This document shows positions 10,944-20,080 of a stretch of 64,000 nt of DNA, piece after piece. Each line of letters begins with the position of its first letter. The stretch's first letter is position 1. The notes beneath the pieces were generated by a model that had not been told where the DNA came from, ran no database searches, and saw only the letters and a list, made by a program, of their open reading frames with translations. Both the position numbers and the translations under genes were made by a program. This stretch comes from Corynebacterium mastitidis DSM 44356 (GTDB taxonomy: Bacteria; Actinomycetota; Actinomycetes; Mycobacteriales; Mycobacteriaceae), in assembly GCF_000375365.1 (NCBI RefSeq), contig NZ_AQXB01000003.1:186001-250000 (forward strand). The letters are read 5' to 3'.

Positions 10944-13673
10944 ATGTCTTGCGATGGCGTTGCGCCGTTGCCCCAGGTCGAGGCCCTCTGGGCCAAGTCC
11001 GGTGACGAGACCGGCTGGCTTTCCCTTCCCCAGCACATGCTGGACGCGGCCTGCGTGGCCGGGCAGGTCTGGGATGTCTGGCTGGCCGATCCAGTGCGGG
11101 CCCTCATCGCGGAGAAAACCGGGTTGAGCGAGCGGGAGGCCCGCGCCCTGGTGGCGTGGCTGGCGGGTGTTCACGATGTAGGCAAGGCAACCACGCAATT
11201 CCAGTGCCTGATCGAGCCGAGCGCTGAGCACGCCCACATCGTCGAGGGGGTCCGCGCCGCGGGCTTTTCCCTCGCGCAAAGCCTGAAGGAAAAGAAGCTG
11301 CGGCACGAGCTGGCCTCTGAGGTCATCCTGGGGGCGTGGCTGGAGGAGCGGGGAGTTGAGAGGAAAAGGGCGTCCTCGATCGCGCAGATCCCGGGGGCGC
11401 ATCACGGGGTAGCCACGGACCCTCGTCTCCTCGGGGAGGCTAAGGCTCTGGTGGCGCGGCACGCGGAGCCCTGGAGGGCGGCGCACGGCGAGCTGATCCG
11501 CCGGATCGTGGAGGCCACGGGGATCACACGGGAGGCGCTGCTCAGGGTGCACCGCCTCCATGCCCCTATCCAGCAGGTTCTCACGGGTCTGGTGGTCATG
11601 GCGGATTGGATCGCCTCGAACTCGCAGGCCTTCCCGATGGTGGTCTCCGGCAGCCAGGAGGAACGCACCCGGCGTGGGATGGACGCCGTGGCCCTCACCG
11701 CCCCGTGGCGGCCGCGATCCCCGGGTGCGCTCACCACGGATGATCTCGTTGACGCCTACTATCGAGCCTCCTTTGGCTGGCCCGAGGGGTATGAGGCGCG
11801 CCCCGTCCAGCGGGAGATGATGAGGGTGCTGGACGAGGCGGAGGGACCGGGCCTTTTCATCGTGGAGGCCCCCACGGGCGAGGGCAAGACGGAGACGGCG
11901 CTCGCCGCGGCCCAGATCCTCGCCGCGCGCACCGGCGCGCAGGGGGTGGTGTTCGCGGCCCCCACGATGGCGACCGCCAACGGGCTCTTCGAGCGCGTGC
12001 TGGAGTGGGCGCAGGGGGCGTCGCCCACGGAGGTGACCTCGATGTACCTGGGGCATTCCAAGAGCGGTCTGTCGGAGGCCTATCGCAACATCGGGGAGGA
12101 CTTCGGAGGCGAGCACGGTGCGGTGGTGGCCACCCAGTGGCTCAGGGGAAACAGGCGCGGGGTGCTCTCGAACTTCGTGGTGTGCACGGTGGATCAGGTG
12201 CTCATGCTGGCGCTTCAGGCCAAATACTCCATGCTGCGCCACGTGGGCCTGGCGGGCAAGATCATCGTCGTCGATGAGGTCCATGCCTATGACGCATACA
12301 TGAGCTCTTACCTGGGCAAGGCGCTGGAATGGCTGCGGTACTACGGGGCCTCGGTGATCCTCATGAGCGCCACCCTGCCGGTGCAGCAAAAGGCGGCGCT
12401 GGTTCGCGCCTACGGGGGAACGAGCGAGTTGCGTAGGGAAGGGGAATACCCGCTGCTCACGGTCGTCGATAATCAGGGCGTGCGGGAATACCCGGTGGCG
12501 GCCCGGCCCACGGAGATTCATGCGCAGGTGGCGCTGCTCGCAGACGAGGACCTCATCCCCCTGCTGGCTGACGGCGGGTGCGCGCTCGTGGTGTGCAATA
12601 CCATTCGCCGCGCGCAGGAGACGTACGCGGCGCTCAATGAGCGCTACCCCGGCGAGGTGGAGCTGCACCACGCGGCCTTCATGGCCTCGGATCGGGCGAA
12701 GAAGGAGGACGCTCTGCGCGCGGCACTGGGCCCGAGGGCACGCCGCGGGGAGGGGAGGCCCGAGCGGCGCATCGTGGTGGCCACGCAGGTGGTGGAACAG
12801 AGCCTGGACATCGACGCGGACGTCCTCATCACGGACATCGCGCCCATGGACCTGCTCATTCAGCGCGTGGGCCGCCTGCACCGTCACGCCCGCCCCGAGG
12901 AGGATCGCCCGCGCCGATGGCGCCAACCCCAGGTGTTTATCCGAGGAGTGGTGGAGCGGGAGCCGGTGCCGCGCTTCGAGAGGGGGACGGAGGCGATCTA
13001 CGATCCCGCCCTGCTGCTGGCCACGATGGCGGTGCTGGAACGTGGCGTGTTGAGCGAGGGCTTGCGCCGCCCCGACGACATCGCCCCGCTCGTTTACGCC
13101 ACCTACGACCCCGAGGCGGAGGCACCGAAAGCGTGGCGGGAGGCGTGGGACGCCGCGCGGGCTCAGAGCGCCGAGGCGCGGAAGCGATCCGAGCATCGCG
13201 CCGGGTTATACCAGGTGCCGGGCGTTCACGCCGCGGCGAGGTTCCACTCCCTTTTCCGGCGTTATCACAGGGGAGAGGCGCGCAAGGGGGAGGAGGCGGG
13301 CGTGGCGCAGGTGCGCGACGCCGACCCTTCCATCGAGGTCATCCCCATCATGGGCACCGAGTACGGGTACCGGCCGCTGGGGTACGAGGGAGCGGAGATC
13401 GCGGAGGGCGCTACCCCCGAAGGCCCCCTGGGTCTGCGGCTCGCGCGTAACACCCTGCGCCTGCCCGCGAGATTAACCAGGTACGAAAGGGACTTTGAGC
13501 GGGTGATCGACCAGCTCGAACGGGAAACCCCCGTGGGCTGGCGGAAAAGCCACCTCCTCAAGGGGCAGGTGGCCCTGGTGCTTGACGAGAACCGGGAGGT
13601 CGATCTGGCGGGAACGCGGCTGCGCTATTCGGAGGAGTTGGGTTTGGAACAGGTAAGAAACGAGGAGGCATGA
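10944..13673 (+). CDS. cas3: CRISPR-associated nuclease/helicase Cas3 (type I-E)
   Basis: Degrades the target DNA strand once Cascade has formed an R-loop. The N-terminal HD nuclease shows HDVGKAT and GAHHG, and the helicase follows with APTGEGKTETA (Walker A), DEVHAYD (Walker B), SATLP (motif III) and QRVGRLHRH (motif VI). The 909 residues fit a full-length Cas3 of type I-E. ATG 10944 is supported by AGGAGGA upstream; GTG 10914 is an in-frame alternative. First gene of the cas operon; its stop TGA overlaps the cas8e start (ATGA). No inactivating change seen. Confidence 0.95.
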   Translation: MSCDGVAPLPQVEALWAKSGDETGWLSLPQHMLDAACVAGQVWDVWLADPVRALIAEKTGLSEREARALVAWLAGVHDVGKATTQFQCLIEPSAEHAHIVEGVRAAGFSLAQSLKEKKLRHELASEVILGAWLEERGVERKRASSIAQIPGAHHGVATDPRLLGEAKALVARHAEPWRAAHGELIRRIVEATGITREALLRVHRLHAPIQQVLTGLVVMADWIASNSQAFPMVVSGSQEERTRRGMDAVALTAPWRPRSPGALTTDDLVDAYYRASFGWPEGYEARPVQREMMRVLDEAEGPGLFIVEAPTGEGKTETALAAAQILAARTGAQGVVFAAPTMATANGLFERVLEWAQGASPTEVTSMYLGHSKSGLSEAYRNIGEDFGGEHGAVVATQWLRGNRRGVLSNFVVCTVDQVLMLALQAKYSMLRHVGLAGKIIVVDEVHAYDAYMSSYLGKALEWLRYYGASVILMSATLPVQQKAALVRAYGGTSELRREGEYPLLTVVDNQGVREYPVAARPTEIHAQVALLADEDLIPLLADGGCALVVCNTIRRAQETYAALNERYPGEVELHHAAFMASDRAKKEDALRAALGPRARRGEGRPERRIVVATQVVEQSLDIDADVLITDIAPMDLLIQRVGRLHRHARPEEDRPRRWRQPQVFIRGVVEREPVPRFERGTEAIYDPALLLATMAVLERGVLSEGLRRPDDIAPLVYATYDPEAEAPKAWREAWDAARAQSAEARKRSEHRAGLYQVPGVHAAARFHSLFRRYHRGEARKGEEAGVAQVRDADPSIEVIPIMGTEYGYRPLGYEGAEIAEGATPEGPLGLRLARNTLRLPARLTRYERDFERVIDQLERETPVGWRKSHLLKGQVALVLDENREVDLAGTRLRYSEELGLEQVRNEEA

Positions 13674-15340
13674 GTATGACGAGGCGGACGTTCTCGCTGC
13701 TCGACGAGCCCTGGATCGCGTGCACGCTTCACGATGGCTCCGAGGCTCTGCTGAGCATGAGGCAGATCTTCGACGGCGAGCGCGCCGTGGCGGGGCTGCG
13801 TGGGGATTCCCCGGCGCAGGACTACGCGGTGTTGCGCCTGTTGTTGGCGGCGTACTGGCGGGCGCACCGGGGTGACGACGAGGTGACGCGGGGCGAGATC
13901 TACGTACACGACGAATGGTTCGAGGCCGAGTGGGACCGGGCGCGGGAGAACCGAGCCGACACCGCCGTGCTGGATTACCTGGAGCGCTACCGGGATCGCT
14001 TCGATCTGCTCCATCCGGTGCACCCCTTCATGCAGGTGGCTGACCTCCACACGGAGAAGGGAACGCGCTCGGAGGTGCGCCGCATCGTGCCGGAGGCGGA
14101 GGCGCAGTACTTCACCATGCGGGCGGGGCGGGCCCGGGAAACCCTGAGCTTCGCGGAGGCCGCCCGCTGGCTCCTGTACACCCAGGCCTACGATTACTCC
14201 GGGATCAAGTCCGGCGCGGTGGGTGATCCCCGGGTGAAGGGGGGCAAGGGGTACCCCATCGGCACGGGATGGACGGGCATGACGGGCGGCACCGTCCTCG
14301 TCGGGAGCACGCTGCGGGAGACGCTGGTGCTCAACACCACCCAGGGCTGCCTGATCGACGAGGCGAGCCGCGTGGACGAGGCGGCGTGGGAGCGCGAGCC
14401 CGACGGGGCCGCGCAGCGCGAACCCACGGCGGAGGCCGTGTATCCCAAGGGCCCCGCGGACCTTGCCACGTGGCAGTCGCGCCGGGTGCGGCTCTTTCAC
14501 GACGGGGAGAGGGTCACCGGGGTGCTGGTGAGCAACGGGGATCGGATCCCGGACGCGGGGGCCAACATTGAGAGCGATCCCATGACCCCGTACCGCTATA
14601 GTGCCAACAAGTCCAAGCGGGACCTCGACGTGTATTACCCGCGCCCCTTTGACTCGAACCGCACCATGTGGCGTTCCCTGGAGCCGCTGATAGCCCTGGA
14701 AAGCGACCCCGGATTCACGGACAAGAACAAGGCACCCCGGCGCCCCGAGACGTTGACCCAGCTGGCGGACCTCAACGAGAACATGGGCATTGCCCCGGAT
14801 TGGGCGAATATCCAGATGGTCTCCGTGGAGTACGGACCCCAGGCCTCCTCGGTGGCGGAGGTGGTGGCGAGCGGAATAGAGATCCCCGTGGCGCTGCTGC
14901 GGGAGGACGCCAGCACGCAGCGCCGCCTGGTACTGGATAACGCCAAGGCCACCCTGGACGCGGCCGTGGCCCTGGGCTCCTTCGCCGGGCAGCTCCTGGT
15001 GGCCGCCGGCGGGGAGTACGAGTTTCAGGCGCCGCCCACGGATACCCTGCTGGCCCGGTTGGAGATTCCCTTCCGGCCATGGCTGCGCGATCTCGCCGGG
15101 GCGGACATAGAGGAGCGAGCCCAGCGCTGGCAGCGCTACGTGCGCCAGCGGGTGCTCGCGGATGCCCGGGTGCTCGTTCAGGGCGCGTCCCCACAGGTGC
15201 TCGTGGGGAGGACGAGCGTGGTGACCACCGAGGGGGACACGCCGTACGTCAAGTCCGCCCATACCGCGTGGCGGGCGTTGACGAAGCGACTCGATGAGGT
15301 ACTCCCCGCTACCAAGCGGGTAAAGGAGGAGAAGCGATGA
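13670..15340 (+). CDS. casA: Type I-E Cascade large subunit Cse1 (CasA/Cas8e)
   Basis: PAM-reading large subunit of Cascade, which recruits Cas3. The 556-residue protein starts with the family hallmark FSLLDEPWI and ends with a helical bundle (from about residue 400) that would contact Cse2. It overlaps cas3 and casB by four bases each, so translation of the operon is coupled. No frameshift. Assignment rests on the N-terminal motif, size and position in a canonical I-E operon. Confidence 0.93.
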   Translation: MSMTRRTFSLLDEPWIACTLHDGSEALLSMRQIFDGERAVAGLRGDSPAQDYAVLRLLLAAYWRAHRGDDEVTRGEIYVHDEWFEAEWDRARENRADTAVLDYLERYRDRFDLLHPVHPFMQVADLHTEKGTRSEVRRIVPEAEAQYFTMRAGRARETLSFAEAARWLLYTQAYDYSGIKSGAVGDPRVKGGKGYPIGTGWTGMTGGTVLVGSTLRETLVLNTTQGCLIDEASRVDEAAWEREPDGAAQREPTAEAVYPKGPADLATWQSRRVRLFHDGERVTGVLVSNGDRIPDAGANIESDPMTPYRYSANKSKRDLDVYYPRPFDSNRTMWRSLEPLIALESDPGFTDKNKAPRRPETLTQLADLNENMGIAPDWANIQMVSVEYGPQASSVAEVVASGIEIPVALLREDASTQRRLVLDNAKATLDAAVALGSFAGQLLVAAGGEYEFQAPPTDTLLARLEIPFRPWLRDLAGADIEERAQRWQRYVRQRVLADARVLVQGASPQVLVGRTSVVTTEGDTPYVKSAHTAWRALTKRLDEVLPATKRVKEEKR

Positions 15341-15942
15341 CGGATAACCTGAGCGTGGCCGTGGGGGAGACGGCAGCGTGGCTTCAGAAAAATGTGCTGA
15401 GCGGAAGAGGGGATCGGGAGGAGGCCCGCGCCCGGGCTACGCTGGCGCAGCTGCGCCGCAACGTGGGGCGCCCGCCGGAGAGCGATCCCCTGGGTCTGTC
15501 CCGGGTGCTCATGGCGTTGCACCCCGCCCTCGACGCCGACCTCGTGGGCAGGGGGGACGCCGCCACCGCCTCGGAGCGCGCCGCCTACCACGCGATTACC
15601 TTCTTCTCCCTGCACATGCAGAGCGCGAGGGAGCCGATGCACGTCCCGGAGAAGTCCTTTGCCGCCGCCTGCGGTCAGATGTATCGGGGTAACGCCTCGG
15701 GTTCCTTCAAGCCCCGCTTCGACGCCATGGTGCTCTCGCGCAACGAGTACTCGCGCCTGCACCACATGCGCTCTCTCATCACCATGCTGCGGGGCGCGCG
15801 GATCGGCTTCGACTACGGACGCTTGGCCTTCGACCTGCGCTCGTTGGAGAACCCGGCGCGGCGCAAGAAAACGCTCATGCGCTGGGGGCGCGACTTTGCG
15901 TGGATCCCCACCGACAGCGAAGAAACCCCCGAAAACCAGTAA
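15337..15942 (+). CDS. casB: Type I-E Cascade small subunit Cse2 (CasB)
   Basis: Two copies of this subunit stabilise the R-loop along the belly of Cascade. The 201-residue, Arg-rich helical protein contains LAQLRRNVG near residue 36 and RLHHMRSLITMLR around residue 145, segments typical of Cse2. Size and place between casA and casC agree. Start ATG overlaps the casA stop. Confidence 0.92.
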   Translation: MTDNLSVAVGETAAWLQKNVLSGRGDREEARARATLAQLRRNVGRPPESDPLGLSRVLMALHPALDADLVGRGDAATASERAAYHAITFFSLHMQSAREPMHVPEKSFAAACGQMYRGNASGSFKPRFDAMVLSRNEYSRLHHMRSLITMLRGARIGFDYGRLAFDLRSLENPARRKKTLMRWGRDFAWIPTDSEETPENQ

Positions 15943-15958
15943 GAAAGGAATCAACCCC

Positions 15959-17122
15959 ATGCCCATCACCATCGACATTCACGCCCTGCACACCCTCCCG
16001 CCCAGCCTCATCAACCGGGATGACACCGGCGCGCCCAAGTCCGCGATCTTCGGCGGGGTGCCGCGCCAGCGGGTGTCCTCCCAGGCGTGGAAGCGCGCCA
16101 TCCGCAAGGACTTCGAGGAGAACTGGGACGCCTCCCGGGTGGGGTACCGCACCAAGCGGGTGGTGTCCAAGATCGTGGAGGCCATCCAGGACCGCGCGGG
16201 TGAGCAGGAGTGGCCGGAGGAGCGCGCCACCGCCGCCGTGGAGGCCGTGTTCAAGACCCTGAAGATCAAGCTCACCGAGCCCAAGATCGACCCCAAGACC
16301 GAGCCCAAGGCCGACCCGGCGGGCGCGGACGAGGAGACCCGCAAGCGCCTGGCGGAGACGGGCTACCTGCTCTTTGTCAGCCCGCGCCAGGTGGAGAGCC
16401 TCACGGAGGCGATCATCGCGGCGGAGGCCGGGGGCACCAAGATCGCCAAGAAGAACGCCCAGGCGCTGTTCAACCAGGAGCACAGCGTGGACATCGCCAT
16501 GTTCGGCCGCATGGTGGCCGACGACCCCCACTACAACGTGGACGCCGCCGTGCAGGTGGCGCACGCGCTGGGCATTCACCCCTCGGAGCCGGAGTTTGAC
16601 TTCTTCACCGCCGTGGATGACCTCGCGGAGGACGAGCAGGAGACCGGGGCGGGCATGATGGGCACGGTGCAGATGATGTCCTCCACCCTGTACCGCTTTG
16701 CCACCATCGACCTGGATTCCCTGGCCGAGAACCTGGGGGATCGGGAGGCCGCCGTGACCGGTTCCGTGCAGTTCCTCAAGAGCTTCGTGGAGTCCCTGCC
16801 CACCGGCAAGCAGAACACCTTTGCGCACAATACCCTGCCGGAGTTGGTGTACGTGGTGGTGCGCGATACCCGTTCGGTGTCCCTGGTCAACGCCTTCGAG
16901 CAGCCGGTGCTGGAGGGCACCGAGGGCCGCCGCGCGGAGGGTGCGGCCCGCCTGGCCAAGGAGGCCGAGCAGATCGAGAGCGCTTATGGCTTCAAGCCCC
17001 TGGCCGCCTACGTGACGGGCCTGGGCGATCTGCCGGGGAAGTTCGAGGGCATCGCGCGACGGGTGACCCTGCCGGAGCTTGGCGACGCCCTGCGCGCGGC
17101 GCTGACCGCCGAGGGGGCGTGA
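15959..17122 (+). CDS. casC: Type I-E Cascade backbone Cas7 (CasC/Cse4)
   Basis: Six copies form the crRNA-binding backbone. The 387-residue protein begins IDIHALHTLPPSLINRDD and has FGGVPRQRVSSQAWKRA, the strongly conserved Cas7e start, plus SVDIAMFGRM in the middle. An insert at about residues 105-120 is a Lys/Asp/Pro-rich tract (KIDPKTEPKADP). ATG 15959 follows AAGAAAGGAA, the clearest ribosome site inside the operon, fitting the high copy number of this subunit. Confidence 0.94.
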   Translation: MPITIDIHALHTLPPSLINRDDTGAPKSAIFGGVPRQRVSSQAWKRAIRKDFEENWDASRVGYRTKRVVSKIVEAIQDRAGEQEWPEERATAAVEAVFKTLKIKLTEPKIDPKTEPKADPAGADEETRKRLAETGYLLFVSPRQVESLTEAIIAAEAGGTKIAKKNAQALFNQEHSVDIAMFGRMVADDPHYNVDAAVQVAHALGIHPSEPEFDFFTAVDDLAEDEQETGAGMMGTVQMMSSTLYRFATIDLDSLAENLGDREAAVTGSVQFLKSFVESLPTGKQNTFAHNTLPELVYVVVRDTRSVSLVNAFEQPVLEGTEGRRAEGAARLAKEAEQIESAYGFKPLAAYVTGLGDLPGKFEGIARRVTLPELGDALRAALTAEGA

Positions 17123-17826
17123 TGCCCTCCACCTTGCTGCTCAAGCTGAAGGGCCCCATGCAGTCCTGGGGCGACCGCAGCCGCTACAAGATCCGAGCCA
17201 CCGGACAGGTGCCCACCAAGTCCGGGGTGATCGGGCTGCTGGCCGCCGCCCAGGGGCGCAGGCGCACCGACCCCGTCGAGGATCTCGCCCGCCTCACCTT
17301 CGCGGTGCGCGTGGACCAGCCGGGCAACCTGCTGCGCGATTACCAGACGGCCCAGCCCTGGCAGAAGAACCCCAATGCGGACGCCAGCCTGGTCACCCGC
17401 TACTACCTCAGCGACGCGCTCTTCGTCGCGGCCGTCGAGAGCCCCCGCCGGGAGGTGCTGGAGGGTCTGGAGGCCGCGCTGCGCCGCCCGCGCTTCCCGC
17501 TGTTCCTGGGGCGTCGGTCCTGCCCCGCCCCGCCGGACCTGGTGATCGGGATCGAAGACGTGGGCGCGGTGGAGGCGCTGCGCGCCCTGGAGTGGCAGGC
17601 CGACGAGCGCCACCGTAAGGAGCGTGCCAAGGAGGTGCTGCTGCCCATCTACCGCGACGGCCTGCCCACCGAGCCCGGAGTGCAGCGTCAGGACGTGCCG
17701 CTGTCCTTTTCCCAGGAGCACCGCCGCTACGGGTGGCGCACCGTGGTGGAGGAGCCCGGCGTCCCGGTGGAGAACCCGAAGGGCCGGGACACGGATTCCT
17801 ACTGGGAGGCGGTGATCTCCGCGTGA
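17122..17826 (+). CDS. casD: Type I-E Cascade subunit Cas5 (CasD)
   Basis: Binds the 5' handle of the crRNA. The 234-residue protein has the Cas5 start LLLKLKGPMQSWGDRSRY and the TKSGVIGLLAAAQGR segment, both typical of CasD. The start is ATG 17122 overlapping the casC stop; GTG 17119 would add one residue. Its TGA overlaps the cas6e start. Confidence 0.93.
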   Translation: MPSTLLLKLKGPMQSWGDRSRYKIRATGQVPTKSGVIGLLAAAQGRRRTDPVEDLARLTFAVRVDQPGNLLRDYQTAQPWQKNPNADASLVTRYYLSDALFVAAVESPRREVLEGLEAALRRPRFPLFLGRRSCPAPPDLVIGIEDVGAVEALRALEWQADERHRKERAKEVLLPIYRDGLPTEPGVQRQDVPLSFSQEHRRYGWRTVVEEPGVPVENPKGRDTDSYWEAVISA

Positions 17827-18452
17827 CCACCTTCACCAAGGTGCTGCTCAACCCGCAGCGGCGCGGCGCGCGCACCCTCCTGCTCAATCCCCAGGCCATG
17901 CACGCCGCCGTGCGCTCCGCCTTCCCCCCGGACATCTCCCAGGAGGATGCCCGCGTGCTGTGGCGGGTGGATCACCGGGGGCATGAGCACGCCCTCTACA
18001 TCGTGGGCCCGGAGAAGCCGGACGCCTCGAACATCGTGGAGCAGGCGGGCTGGGATACCCGCCCCGCACAGAGCGCGGACTACGCGCCCCTGCTCGGCTC
18101 GCTCCTGCGCGGGCAGCAGTGGCGCTTCGAGCTGGTGGCCAACCCCGTGAAGTCCTCCCGGGCGCAGGGTCAGCGCGGCAAGATCATCCCGTTGGTGGGG
18201 CAGGGGCAGGTGGAGTGGCTGGTCAAGCGCGCCCCGGAGGCGGGGTTTAGGCTTCTCGACGCCGCCACTACCGGCCAGGAGAACCTGCGTTTCCGGCGCG
18301 GCCGGGGGAGCAACCACGTGATCCTGCGCACCGCGCGCTTCAGCGGGGTCATGGAGGTCGAGGACGCGGACAGGCTGCGCGCCACGCTCACCCACGGCAT
18401 CGGCCGCGCCCGGGCCTACGGCTGCGGGCTGCTCACCCTCGCGCGGCCATGA
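17823..18452 (+). CDS. casE: crRNA endoribonuclease Cas6e (CasE)
   Basis: Cuts the pre-crRNA at the repeat hairpin and stays bound to the 3' handle. It starts at GTG 17823. The C-terminal glycine-rich loop GIGRARAYGCGLLTLA is the family hallmark, and the tandem ferredoxin-fold length (209 residues) is normal. His26 or nearby N-terminal residues would be catalytic, but I cannot assign the residue with certainty. Overlaps both neighbours by four bases. Confidence 0.92.
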   Translation: MTTFTKVLLNPQRRGARTLLLNPQAMHAAVRSAFPPDISQEDARVLWRVDHRGHEHALYIVGPEKPDASNIVEQAGWDTRPAQSADYAPLLGSLLRGQQWRFELVANPVKSSRAQGQRGKIIPLVGQGQVEWLVKRAPEAGFRLLDAATTGQENLRFRRGRGSNHVILRTARFSGVMEVEDADRLRATLTHGIGRARAYGCGLLTLARP

Positions 18453-19403
18453 CCACCCCCAGCGAGGTGCCGCTGGAGCGCCAGGAGCTCGCGCGGATGG
18501 AAAACCGCCTGTGCTTCCTCTACGTCGAGCGGGCCACCCTCCACTGCGCCGACAACGCCCTGACCATCACCGACAAGCGCGGCGTGGCGCACGTGCCCGC
18601 CACCGCGCTCGCGGCGCTCCTGCTGGGCCCCGGCACCAAGGTCACGCACAAGGCGATGGCCCTGCTTGGCGACGCCGGTTGCTCCATCCTCTGGGTAGGC
18701 GAGCGGGGCGTGCGGTACTACGCGCACGGCCGCCCGGCCGCCAAGACCGCGCGCATGGCGCAGCGGCAGGCGCGCGTGGTAACCAACCAGCGCACCCGAC
18801 TTCACTGCGCGCGGGCCATGTACGGCCTGCGCTTCCCCGGCGAGGACGTCCAGGCCCTCAGCATGGCGCAGCTGCGCGGGCGCGCGGATGAAAAGAATCT
18901 ACGCCGAGCACGCCCGGCGCACCGGGGTGGCCTGGACCAGGCGCAACTACGACCCCGCGGACTTTGACTCCGGCGACCCCATCAACCGGGCGCTCACCGC
19001 CGCCAACGCCGCCCTGTACGGCATCGCCCACGCCGTGATCGTGGGCCTGGGCTTCATCCCCGCCCTGGGCGTGGTGCACACGGGAACCGACCGTTCCTTC
19101 GTGTACGACATCGCGGACCTGTACAAGGCCGAGGTGACCATCCCCGCCGCCTTTGACGCCGTGGCCGCCGCCATCCAGGAAGGCTGCACCGAGAGCGCCC
19201 CACTCACCACCGACGTGCGACGCCGCATCCGCGACAGCGTGGTGCGGCTGCGCCTGATGGAACGCATGGTCAAGGACCTCTACGCGCTCATGGGCGTGGC
19301 CGAGGACGAGGACCTCCTCGACGTGGAACTCAAGCTCTGGAGCGAGCTCGAGGTGATCGCCGCCGGGATGAACTGGGGAGAAGACGTGGGGGAATACCCA
19401 TGA
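18449..19403 (+). pseudogene. cas1: cas1 (type I-E integrase) broken by a frameshift
   Basis: Cas1 inserts new spacers together with Cas2. The first part (18449 to about 18886) reads as a normal Cas1 up to MAQLRGR, then leaves frame and would end at 18967. The rest continues in another frame from 18888, MKRIYAEHARRTGV, through HTGTDRSFVYDIADLYK, which contains the metal-binding His and Asp. In the family the join reads LRGxEGARxK. Here eight bases appear to be missing between two GCGC tracts, taking out the Glu-Gly that includes a catalytic metal ligand. A sequencing error cannot be excluded. If real, spacer acquisition is dead. Confidence 0.85.
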
Positions 19404-19741
19404 TGGTCCTGGTAGTAACCGCCTGCCCCGCGGGTCTCCGCGGCGACCTCACCAGGTGGCTCATGGAAATATCCCCAGGCGTGTTCGTGGGGAACCCCAC
19501 CGCGCGGCTACGCGAGAGCCTATGGGACCGCACCGTGACGCTGGTCAAGGACGGGCGGGCCCTGCTGGTGTACAGCGCCCACAACGAACAGGGAATGGAG
19601 TTTAGGACGCACCGCCACGACTGGCAGCCCACCGACTACGAAGGGCTCACACTCATGCTGCGGCCCCACGCCAAGCCGCCCGAGGCCAGGCGCAGGACGG
19701 GGTGGAGCACGGCGAGGAACATGCGCCGGGCACGGAGGTGA
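19400..19741 (+). CDS. cas2: CRISPR-associated protein Cas2 (type I-E)
   Basis: Structural partner of Cas1 in spacer integration. The ferredoxin-fold start MMVLVVTACPAGLRGDLTRW and the GVFVGNPTARLRE segment are characteristic of the I-E Cas2 group. 113 residues including a basic tail. Start ATG overlaps the end of the cas1 remnant. It appears intact, but has no functional Cas1 partner in this window. Confidence 0.92.
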   Translation: MMVLVVTACPAGLRGDLTRWLMEISPGVFVGNPTARLRESLWDRTVTLVKDGRALLVYSAHNEQGMEFRTHRHDWQPTDYEGLTLMLRPHAKPPEARRRTGWSTARNMRRARR

Positions 19742-19861
19742 AGGCAGCGGTGGGGCGGTTGATTGGCGCGAACCGTTGGTGCGGCCAGGGCAGTGGAGGG
19801 GCGTGAAGGGAAGTTGTAGCTAGAATAAGGAATCGGCTCTTGTTTCTGCTGGTCAGGAAGT
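19742..19861 (+). promoter_or_regulatory. CRISPR leader
   Basis: 120 bases between cas2 and the first repeat, non-coding. The half next to the array is AT-richer (AAGTTGTAGCTAGAATAAGG and TCTTGTTTCTG), as expected for a leader carrying the array promoter and the integration site. No other gene is seen here. Confidence 0.7.
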
Positions 19862-20064
19862 GTGTTCCCCGCGTATGCGGGGGTGAGCCGCACTCCTCAC
19901 CCCAGCCGAATACACCGCCGCCGTGTTCCCCGCGTATGCGGGGGTGAGCCCTCCCGGGCCTGGTGGTGCTTCGTGACCTCGTAGTGTTCCCCGCGTATGC
20001 GGGGGTGAGCCCACCCTCCCGCACACCGCGCACCGCAACCGCGCGTGTTCCCCGCGTATGCGGG
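19862..20064 (+). CRISPR. Type I-E CRISPR array, 3 spacers, last repeat truncated
   Basis: Repeat of 28 bases, GTGTTCCCCGCGTATGCGGG followed by GGTGAGCC, at 19862-19889, 19923-19950 and 19984-20011, all identical. A fourth copy at 20045-20064 keeps only the first 20 bases. The three spacers (19890-19922, 19951-19983, 20012-20044) are each 33 bases. The hairpin CCCCGC/GCGGGG suits Cas6e. The missing 3' end of the last repeat is replaced abruptly by phage-derived sequence, so the trailer end of a longer array was probably lost. Confidence 0.97.
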
Positions 20065-20080
20065 ACCCGGTACTGCCTGA

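Follow-up and report, generated by a model that had tools for sequence, protein, structure and literature searches.

An 8-base deletion divides cas1 in a type I-E CRISPR-Cas operon of Corynebacterium mastitidis, in a genus with recurrent cas1 lesions

The window analyzed here, a stretch of 64,000 nucleotides from the draft genome of Corynebacterium mastitidis DSM 44356 (contig NZ_AQXB01000003.1, positions 186,001 to 250,000), harbors an operon with the gene order cas3, cas8e, cse2, cas7, cas5e, cas6e, cas1e and cas2e, with a leader and a short array downstream of it. The features of the locus, in window coordinates and with the protein profiles matched, are as follows (in all locators below, G000 designates this genome and C5 and C10 two of its other contigs).

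10944..13673, plus strand: cas3, HD nuclease and helicase (cas3_HD, cas3_core; HMM coverage 24-940 of 941)
13670..15340, plus strand: cas8e (cse1/casA; TIGR02547; genus profile fully covered)
15337..15942, plus strand: cse2 (casB; TIGR02548; full coverage)
15956..17122, plus strand: cas7 (casC; TIGR01869; full coverage)
17119..17826, plus strand: cas5e (casD; TIGR01868; full coverage)
17823..18452, plus strand: cas6e (casE; TIGR01907; full coverage)
18449..18967, plus strand: cas1, 5' part, with the N-terminal domain in frame to about 18880 and an out-of-frame tail thereafter
18878..18884, plus strand: deletion junction, a single GGGCGCG, with 8 bases including the Glu codon absent
18888..19403, plus strand: cas1, 3' part, with the C-terminal domain in the other frame; its first ATG (18888) is the Met of ARMK
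19400..19741, plus strand: cas2 (TIGR01873), whose start overlaps the cas1 stop (ATGA at 19400)
19742..19861, plus strand: leader, the last 50 bases or so of which are, by eye, alike in C. oculi, C. lowii and a further relative, G063
19862..20064, plus strand: CRISPR array of three full 28-nt repeats and three 33-nt spacers at 61-base spacing, with a fourth repeat partial
19951..19983, plus strand: spacer 2, matching 31 of 33 bases in a tape-measure gene carried by a resident prophage (G000:C10:52345-52377, minus strand)

The eight genes in one operon and the adjoining array of 28-29 nt repeats that characterize a type I-E locus are all present here, with cas1 in two pieces. The seven cas genes besides cas1 are full length as judged by profile coverage, and each of them aligns with three relatives in one piece; a reading made from the sequence alone had described all other cas genes as intact, and profile coverage bears this out. 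The type I-E loci of C. oculi and C. lowii share with the window the gene order, protein identities of 63-89%, a leader that ends similarly and the combination of 28-nt repeats with 33-nt spacers. They possess, however, an unbroken cas1 with 14 and 22 spacers beside it, whereas the window presents a broken cas1 and three spacers.

The combined use of open reading frames and profile searches divides the type I-E cas1 gene (18449-19403) over two reading frames. The 5' frame (18449-18967) covers positions 2-136 of the Cas1e profile TIGR03638 with 157.5 bits and the 3' frame (18888-19403) covers positions 141-268 with 170.2 bits, and hence the whole profile is not spanned by any single open frame. 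Set against intact genes of the same Cas1e group, which score 331-368 bits, the two pieces reach 155 and 178 bits. In a DNA alignment with five intact Corynebacterium homologues (those of C. oculi and C. lowii and three further cas1 genes of the genus), the window cas1 shows one gap, of exactly 8 bases, located at the motif that reads LRGREGARMK in the nearest relatives. In the window, whose letters at 18872-18890 are CTGCGCGGGCGCGCGGATG, LRG and ARMK remain but the codons that join them are absent. The bases gone correspond to Arg-Glu and two thirds of a Gly codon. The residue aligned with this Glu is Glu in 75 of 75 intact Corynebacterium cas1 genes, where intactness was defined by profile coverage and the alignment column was chosen without requiring Glu. 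We take the Glu of LRGxEG to be a metal ligand, E141 of E. coli Cas1, and its codon is absent from the window gene. The letters VHTG and YDIAD, which presumably contain the metal-binding His and Asp of the Cas1 C-terminal domain, are both preserved in the second open reading frame. An alignment of C. oculi Cas1 with solved Cas1 structures runs across the LRGREGARMK motif and also takes in this same C-terminal stretch. The nearest named relatives of the C-terminal half are C. oculi (84%) and C. lowii (74%). Since the loss of 8 bases removes the conserved Glu and also shifts the frame, neither frame encodes a complete Cas1.

The sequence-only reading had attributed the inactivation of cas1 to an 8-bp deletion at its conserved Glu, and the gap against five homologues, together with the presence of Glu in all 75 intact genes, supports that attribution. 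Its coordinates and letters for the lesion agree with the window sequence. Two of its details require amendment. The deleted pair was given as Glu-Gly, of which Glu is correct, the actual loss being Arg-Glu with part of the Gly codon, and the flanks were described as GCGC tracts; a repeat does flank the site, namely the 7-bp GGGCGCG. Constraint on the two halves of the gene is not significantly relaxed, with 6 unique changes over 307 columns against 29 over 2434 in the other genes (P = 0.16), a result that would fit a recent loss of cas1 and would equally fit an intact gene. We regard inactivation of the adaptation module as probably recent.

The relative G063 reads GGGCGCGAGGGCGCG at this site, with two copies of GGGCGCG that stand 8 bases apart and encode Gly-Arg-Glu-Gly-Ala. 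The window has one copy of this 7-bp direct repeat of 8-bp period, and removing one repeat unit produces exactly the window sequence. Replication slippage is the simplest cause, because both copies stand in G063 and one in the window; slippage between the 7-bp direct repeats would have led to the loss of 8 bases in cas1. Runs of 6 or 7 consecutive matching bases at an 8-bp period were identified at this site in 4 of the 75 intact homologues. A short direct repeat of this kind, very GC-rich as judged from G063, is also a place where sequencing reads or PCR might drop a unit, and the assembly is a draft of 39 contigs. It is nevertheless improbable that the eight bases were dropped in assembly or sequencing and that cas1 is intact in the living strain: ordinary reads, as a matter of general knowledge, span so short a repeat, every other cas gene of the operon aligns without interruption with its three relatives, the lesion comprises 8 bases and is not a homopolymer slip, and the three arrays of this genome are small too. 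It might also be proposed that the split or frameshifted Cas1 fragments still work, in another role, given that both are open and match the family well. We consider this very improbable and discarded it, since neither frame retains the codon of the conserved Glu. The ATG of the 3' part is moreover common to the five aligned homologues, and no ribosome-binding site (Shine-Dalgarno) was seen by eye upstream of it, so that there is no sign of a start codon having newly evolved.

No second Cas1 was found in the 2.37-Mb draft genome, in which the two fragments are the only Cas1 matches; because the draft consists of 39 contigs, a Cas1 inside an assembly gap is conceivable, with completeness given as 99.98%. 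The genome therefore presents complete Cascade and Cas3 genes with no intact cas1 found in the draft, and at the level of sequence the prediction of an interference-only system holds, with interference genes of full length and no other Cas1 found. The overlap of the cas2 start with the cas1 stop implies that translation of cas2 may depend on translation through cas1, and early termination of cas1 may hence lower Cas2 as well.

The array had been described as a frozen array of three spacers. The count applies to 19862-20064 and does not extend to the genome, which holds three arrays with nearly the same repeats, two of them outside the window:

G000:C5:70991-71201, minus strand: C5 array of four repeats with one spacer in triplicate, adjoining a leuB-like gene (named by eye)
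G000:C10:18566-18715, minus strand: C10 array, with two spacers set between three repeats, inside the prophage

The term frozen can be retained for acquisition. It cannot cover recombination, because one repeat-spacer unit of the C5 array is present three times, and the C5 array has likely changed through recombination rather than acquisition. A lone degenerate repeat lies approximately 1.3 kb from this orphan array. The last repeat of the window array (20045-20072) stops after 20 bases, with unrelated sequence beyond, and the distal part of the array may therefore have gone by deletion.

Spacer 2 targets the tape-measure gene of the prophage at its 3' end, with mismatches at positions 4 and 31. 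The match includes a seed mismatch, and the PAM, AGC, departs from the consensus, in which AA followed by C or G is commonest. Seed mismatches combined with off-consensus PAMs are of the classical escape type. Spacer 2 thus provides the imperfect match to a resident element that a hypothesis of priming presupposes. Spacers 1 and 3 of the window have no other match in the genome at up to 3 mismatches, and the spacers of the C5 and C10 arrays were compared with 164,561 bases of it. Among public phages no protospacer was identified for spacers 1 and 2, and matches to spacer 3 were weak (E 0.03 or worse). A search of viral contigs returned no exact match for the core of spacer 1 or of spacer 3 and, for the core of spacer 2, a single contig, which is identical to C10 over 10,224 bases. 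Two stretches were compared of the 47,209-base IMG/VR viral contig, and both are identical to C10, with the mini-array and the target site included. Owing to this identity the viral contig is not an independent witness; it is probably the same prophage.

In order to assess the PAM, 4889 spacers (4763 distinct) from loci of the genus were scanned against the C10 contig, yielding 24 rows at no more than 6 mismatches in 32, versus 1 row for the same spacers reversed. The 24 rows include the self-target once and one spacer three times, leaving 21 distinct sites targeted from other species. These sites are preceded by AA (11), GA (3), AG (2) and other dinucleotides singly, and the self-target by AG and then C; among the 4889 spacers, the 33-mer begins with C 2722 times, with G 1546 times, with T 511 times and with A 110 times. 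Two of the 21 other sites have AG in front of them, so that AGC may function as a PAM.

The C10 contig encodes an integrase, an anti-repressor, a tape-measure protein, a minor tail protein and an endolysin, and its mini-array is placed between a DNA methyltransferase gene and a pair of genes for a repressor and a metallo-protease. One of the C10 spacers agrees in 31 of 33 bases with the antirepressor gene of Gordonia phage CheeseTouch, and 19 more records show weaker matches. The prophage could use the interference machinery of the host against rival phages. The portion of PMC6858448 consulted describes virus-borne mini-CRISPR arrays, with which the two-spacer array of C10 shares host-like repeats in a virus; it differs from the arrays described there in residing in a Corynebacterium prophage, beside the repressor, in a host with a broken cas1.

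Across 242 Corynebacterium genomes, a Cas1e match (E 1e-20 or better) was identified in 100 and cas8e in 88. Six of the 88 cas8e loci were excluded, leaving 82 evaluable I-E operons: G081, G024 and G086 lie at contig ends, G051 has masked bases near cas3, lesions were called in cas3, cas8e and cas2 of G232, and in G181 the stretch from cas8e to the contig end yielded neither cas1 nor cas2, which could represent a further loss. Lesions in the 82 loci number 9 in cas1 (the window included), 4 in cas3, 1 in cas2 and 1 in cse2, the last (G204) amounting to no more than a profile match that begins later. No lesion was called in cas8e, cas7, cas5 or cas6e in these loci, although the counts are anchored on cas8e, so that lesions of this gene may escape. 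With 11% of the coding length, cas1 yet accounts for 9 of 15 lesions (P = 5.7e-6), and for 9 of 19 when the doubtful loci G051 and G232 are counted in (P = 7e-5); over altered lesion counts P ranges from 3e-7 to 0.01. The nine cas1 lesions all differ in place and kind. Six are deletions, one of 8 bases, one of 2 and four of a single base, two others are in-frame stops, and the ninth is an in-frame deletion that takes away some 80 residues, the Glu region among them. The single-base deletions (G141, G096, G134, G100) could be sequencing errors, that of G134 lying in a T run and that of G100 being placed against a reference only 57% alike; dropping them gives P = 0.002 to 0.01. Related species are not independent draws, while distinct lesions represent distinct events. 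The 80-residue deletion belongs to G204 (C1:1710001-1730000), the I-E operon of which is otherwise near-intact.

A short array was considered as a mark of cas1 loss and rejected, the median number of repeats being 49 in broken loci and 52 in intact ones (corrected P = 0.17); an earlier P of 0.014 had undercounted G016, G149 and G141, and the repeat counts of intact loci are lower bounds. The survey also returned a second, divergent Cas1e group (loci L201-L211 and L230), which scores about 215-240 bits. Those of its loci in which an array was located have repeats of the CTCCGC type, and neither the cas8e nor the cse2 profile applied here for type I-E gave a match. The group may represent the I-E' arrangement that the consulted portion of PMC9944170 describes in C. 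striatum.

Self-targeting was then compared among genomes with a broken cas1. Array DNA searched against the own genome gave no credible self-match in G204 (best E 0.0076), none in G016 (best E 0.05, about 20 of 49 repeats searched) and no match outside the array in G149 (about 26 of 77 repeats searched). The array DNA of G141 produced three matches at E 1.5e-5 or better, and 7 of its 48 spacers match a single region of its own contig C11 at no more than 6 mismatches. The leader-end spacer (AGC) and spacer 29 (AAC) match perfectly, spacer 20 has one mismatch (AAC), spacer 35 has two (AAC), and the three others have 5 or 6. The C11 region encodes tail-like and endolysin-like proteins, as judged by eye from its list of open reading frames. 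Self-matches to phage-like DNA were thus observed in 2 of 5 genomes (G000 and G141), in a sample made up of cas1-broken genomes. The perfect target with AAC suggests that interference itself is blocked in G141, where an anti-CRISPR or silenced interference would be expected.

The data can be read in two ways as to why cas1 was lost. Relief from primed adaptation against a half-recognised resident prophage is the most interesting of the inferred causes, and drift or a general cost of acquisition, acting on a slip-prone motif, the plainer one. Under the former, priming through spacer 2 would feed Cas1-Cas2 with the host's own chromosome, and a broken cas1, selected for in the lysogen, would stop this while interference is kept. 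As reported in the portion of PMC6990116 consulted, partial matches can provoke primed adaptation in type I systems, and self-acquisition can follow when priming acts on integrated elements. The match of spacer 2 to the prophage at 31 of 33 bases is in line with such priming, as are AA before 11 of the 21 sites targeted from other species, where the self-target has AG then C, and the spacers of G141, also cas1-broken, that match its own phage-like region, two of them perfectly. Against it, three further cas1-broken genomes lack a credible self-match (two of them searched over part of the array), self-targeting is common anyway, in 7% and 18% of genomes according to two surveys quoted in the same portion of PMC6990116, the AG found at 2 of the 21 other sites makes AGC a potentially usable PAM, and the perfect AAC target of G141 points to blocked interference there. 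On balance we consider this cause possible though doubtful. The alternative holds that acquisition causes autoimmunity, or is of little benefit in the niche, and that weak selection or drift removes cas1 with no role for the prophage. It fits the diversity of the nine lesions across the genus and the 3 of 5 tested broken genomes that have no credible self-target. Isolates of C. striatum with lesions in interference genes, reported in PMC9944170 (portion consulted), also favor drift. Pure drift, however, should follow gene length, and cas8e, cas7, cas5 and cas6e are free of lesions in the 82 loci, which suggests that interference is retained as adaptation goes. We give general cost or drift an even chance. 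The broader proposal that corynebacteria repeatedly and selectively break cas1 and keep interference, because priming on partly escaped prophages amounts to autoimmunity, with prophages able to add mini-arrays, appears unlikely.

The locus as a whole is very probably, on sequence grounds, a type I-E operon with an inactivated adaptation module, which would leave an interference-only system with a fixed memory. With Cas1 incomplete, no spacers would be integrated, and cas2, overlapping the end of cas1, would probably be translated less. Cascade and Cas3 would still be made and would use the existing spacers of the three arrays, providing the cell with an immunity of fixed memory in which arrays would change only by recombination between repeats, as the triplicate spacer of C5 suggests.

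Decayed CRISPR loci are common, and the locus is of a known kind, a type I-E system whose adaptation gene is dead; what it adds is that cas1 loss recurs in the genus and that a resident prophage is half recognised. Among the literature matches listed, which were consulted in part and cover subscription journals thinly, there is no report of cas1 lesions combined with intact interference in Corynebacterium. The portion of PMC9944170 consulted reports C. striatum isolates with damaged cas3, cse1, cas7 and cas2 in their I-E systems and no damaged cas1, unlike the window, where cas1 alone is broken; this weakens the claim that cas1 is singled out. Cas operons damaged under self-targeting, as presented in the consulted portion of PMC6990116, resemble the window in the loss of a cas function, which serves there as a way out of autoimmunity, and differ in that the targeting or the whole cas operon was given up, whereas the window keeps its interference genes.

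Within one genus, then, the gene that writes memories is hit beyond its share of length and the genes that attack are mostly kept, which raises a testable question: does the cost of CRISPR lie in acquiring memories rather than in using them? This strain offers a compact test case: its spacers are few, one of them half-matches a resident prophage, the cas1 lesion is defined, and cas1 is intact in close relatives. If the reading based on priming is true, the cas1 lesion would represent a settlement between host memory and lysogeny.
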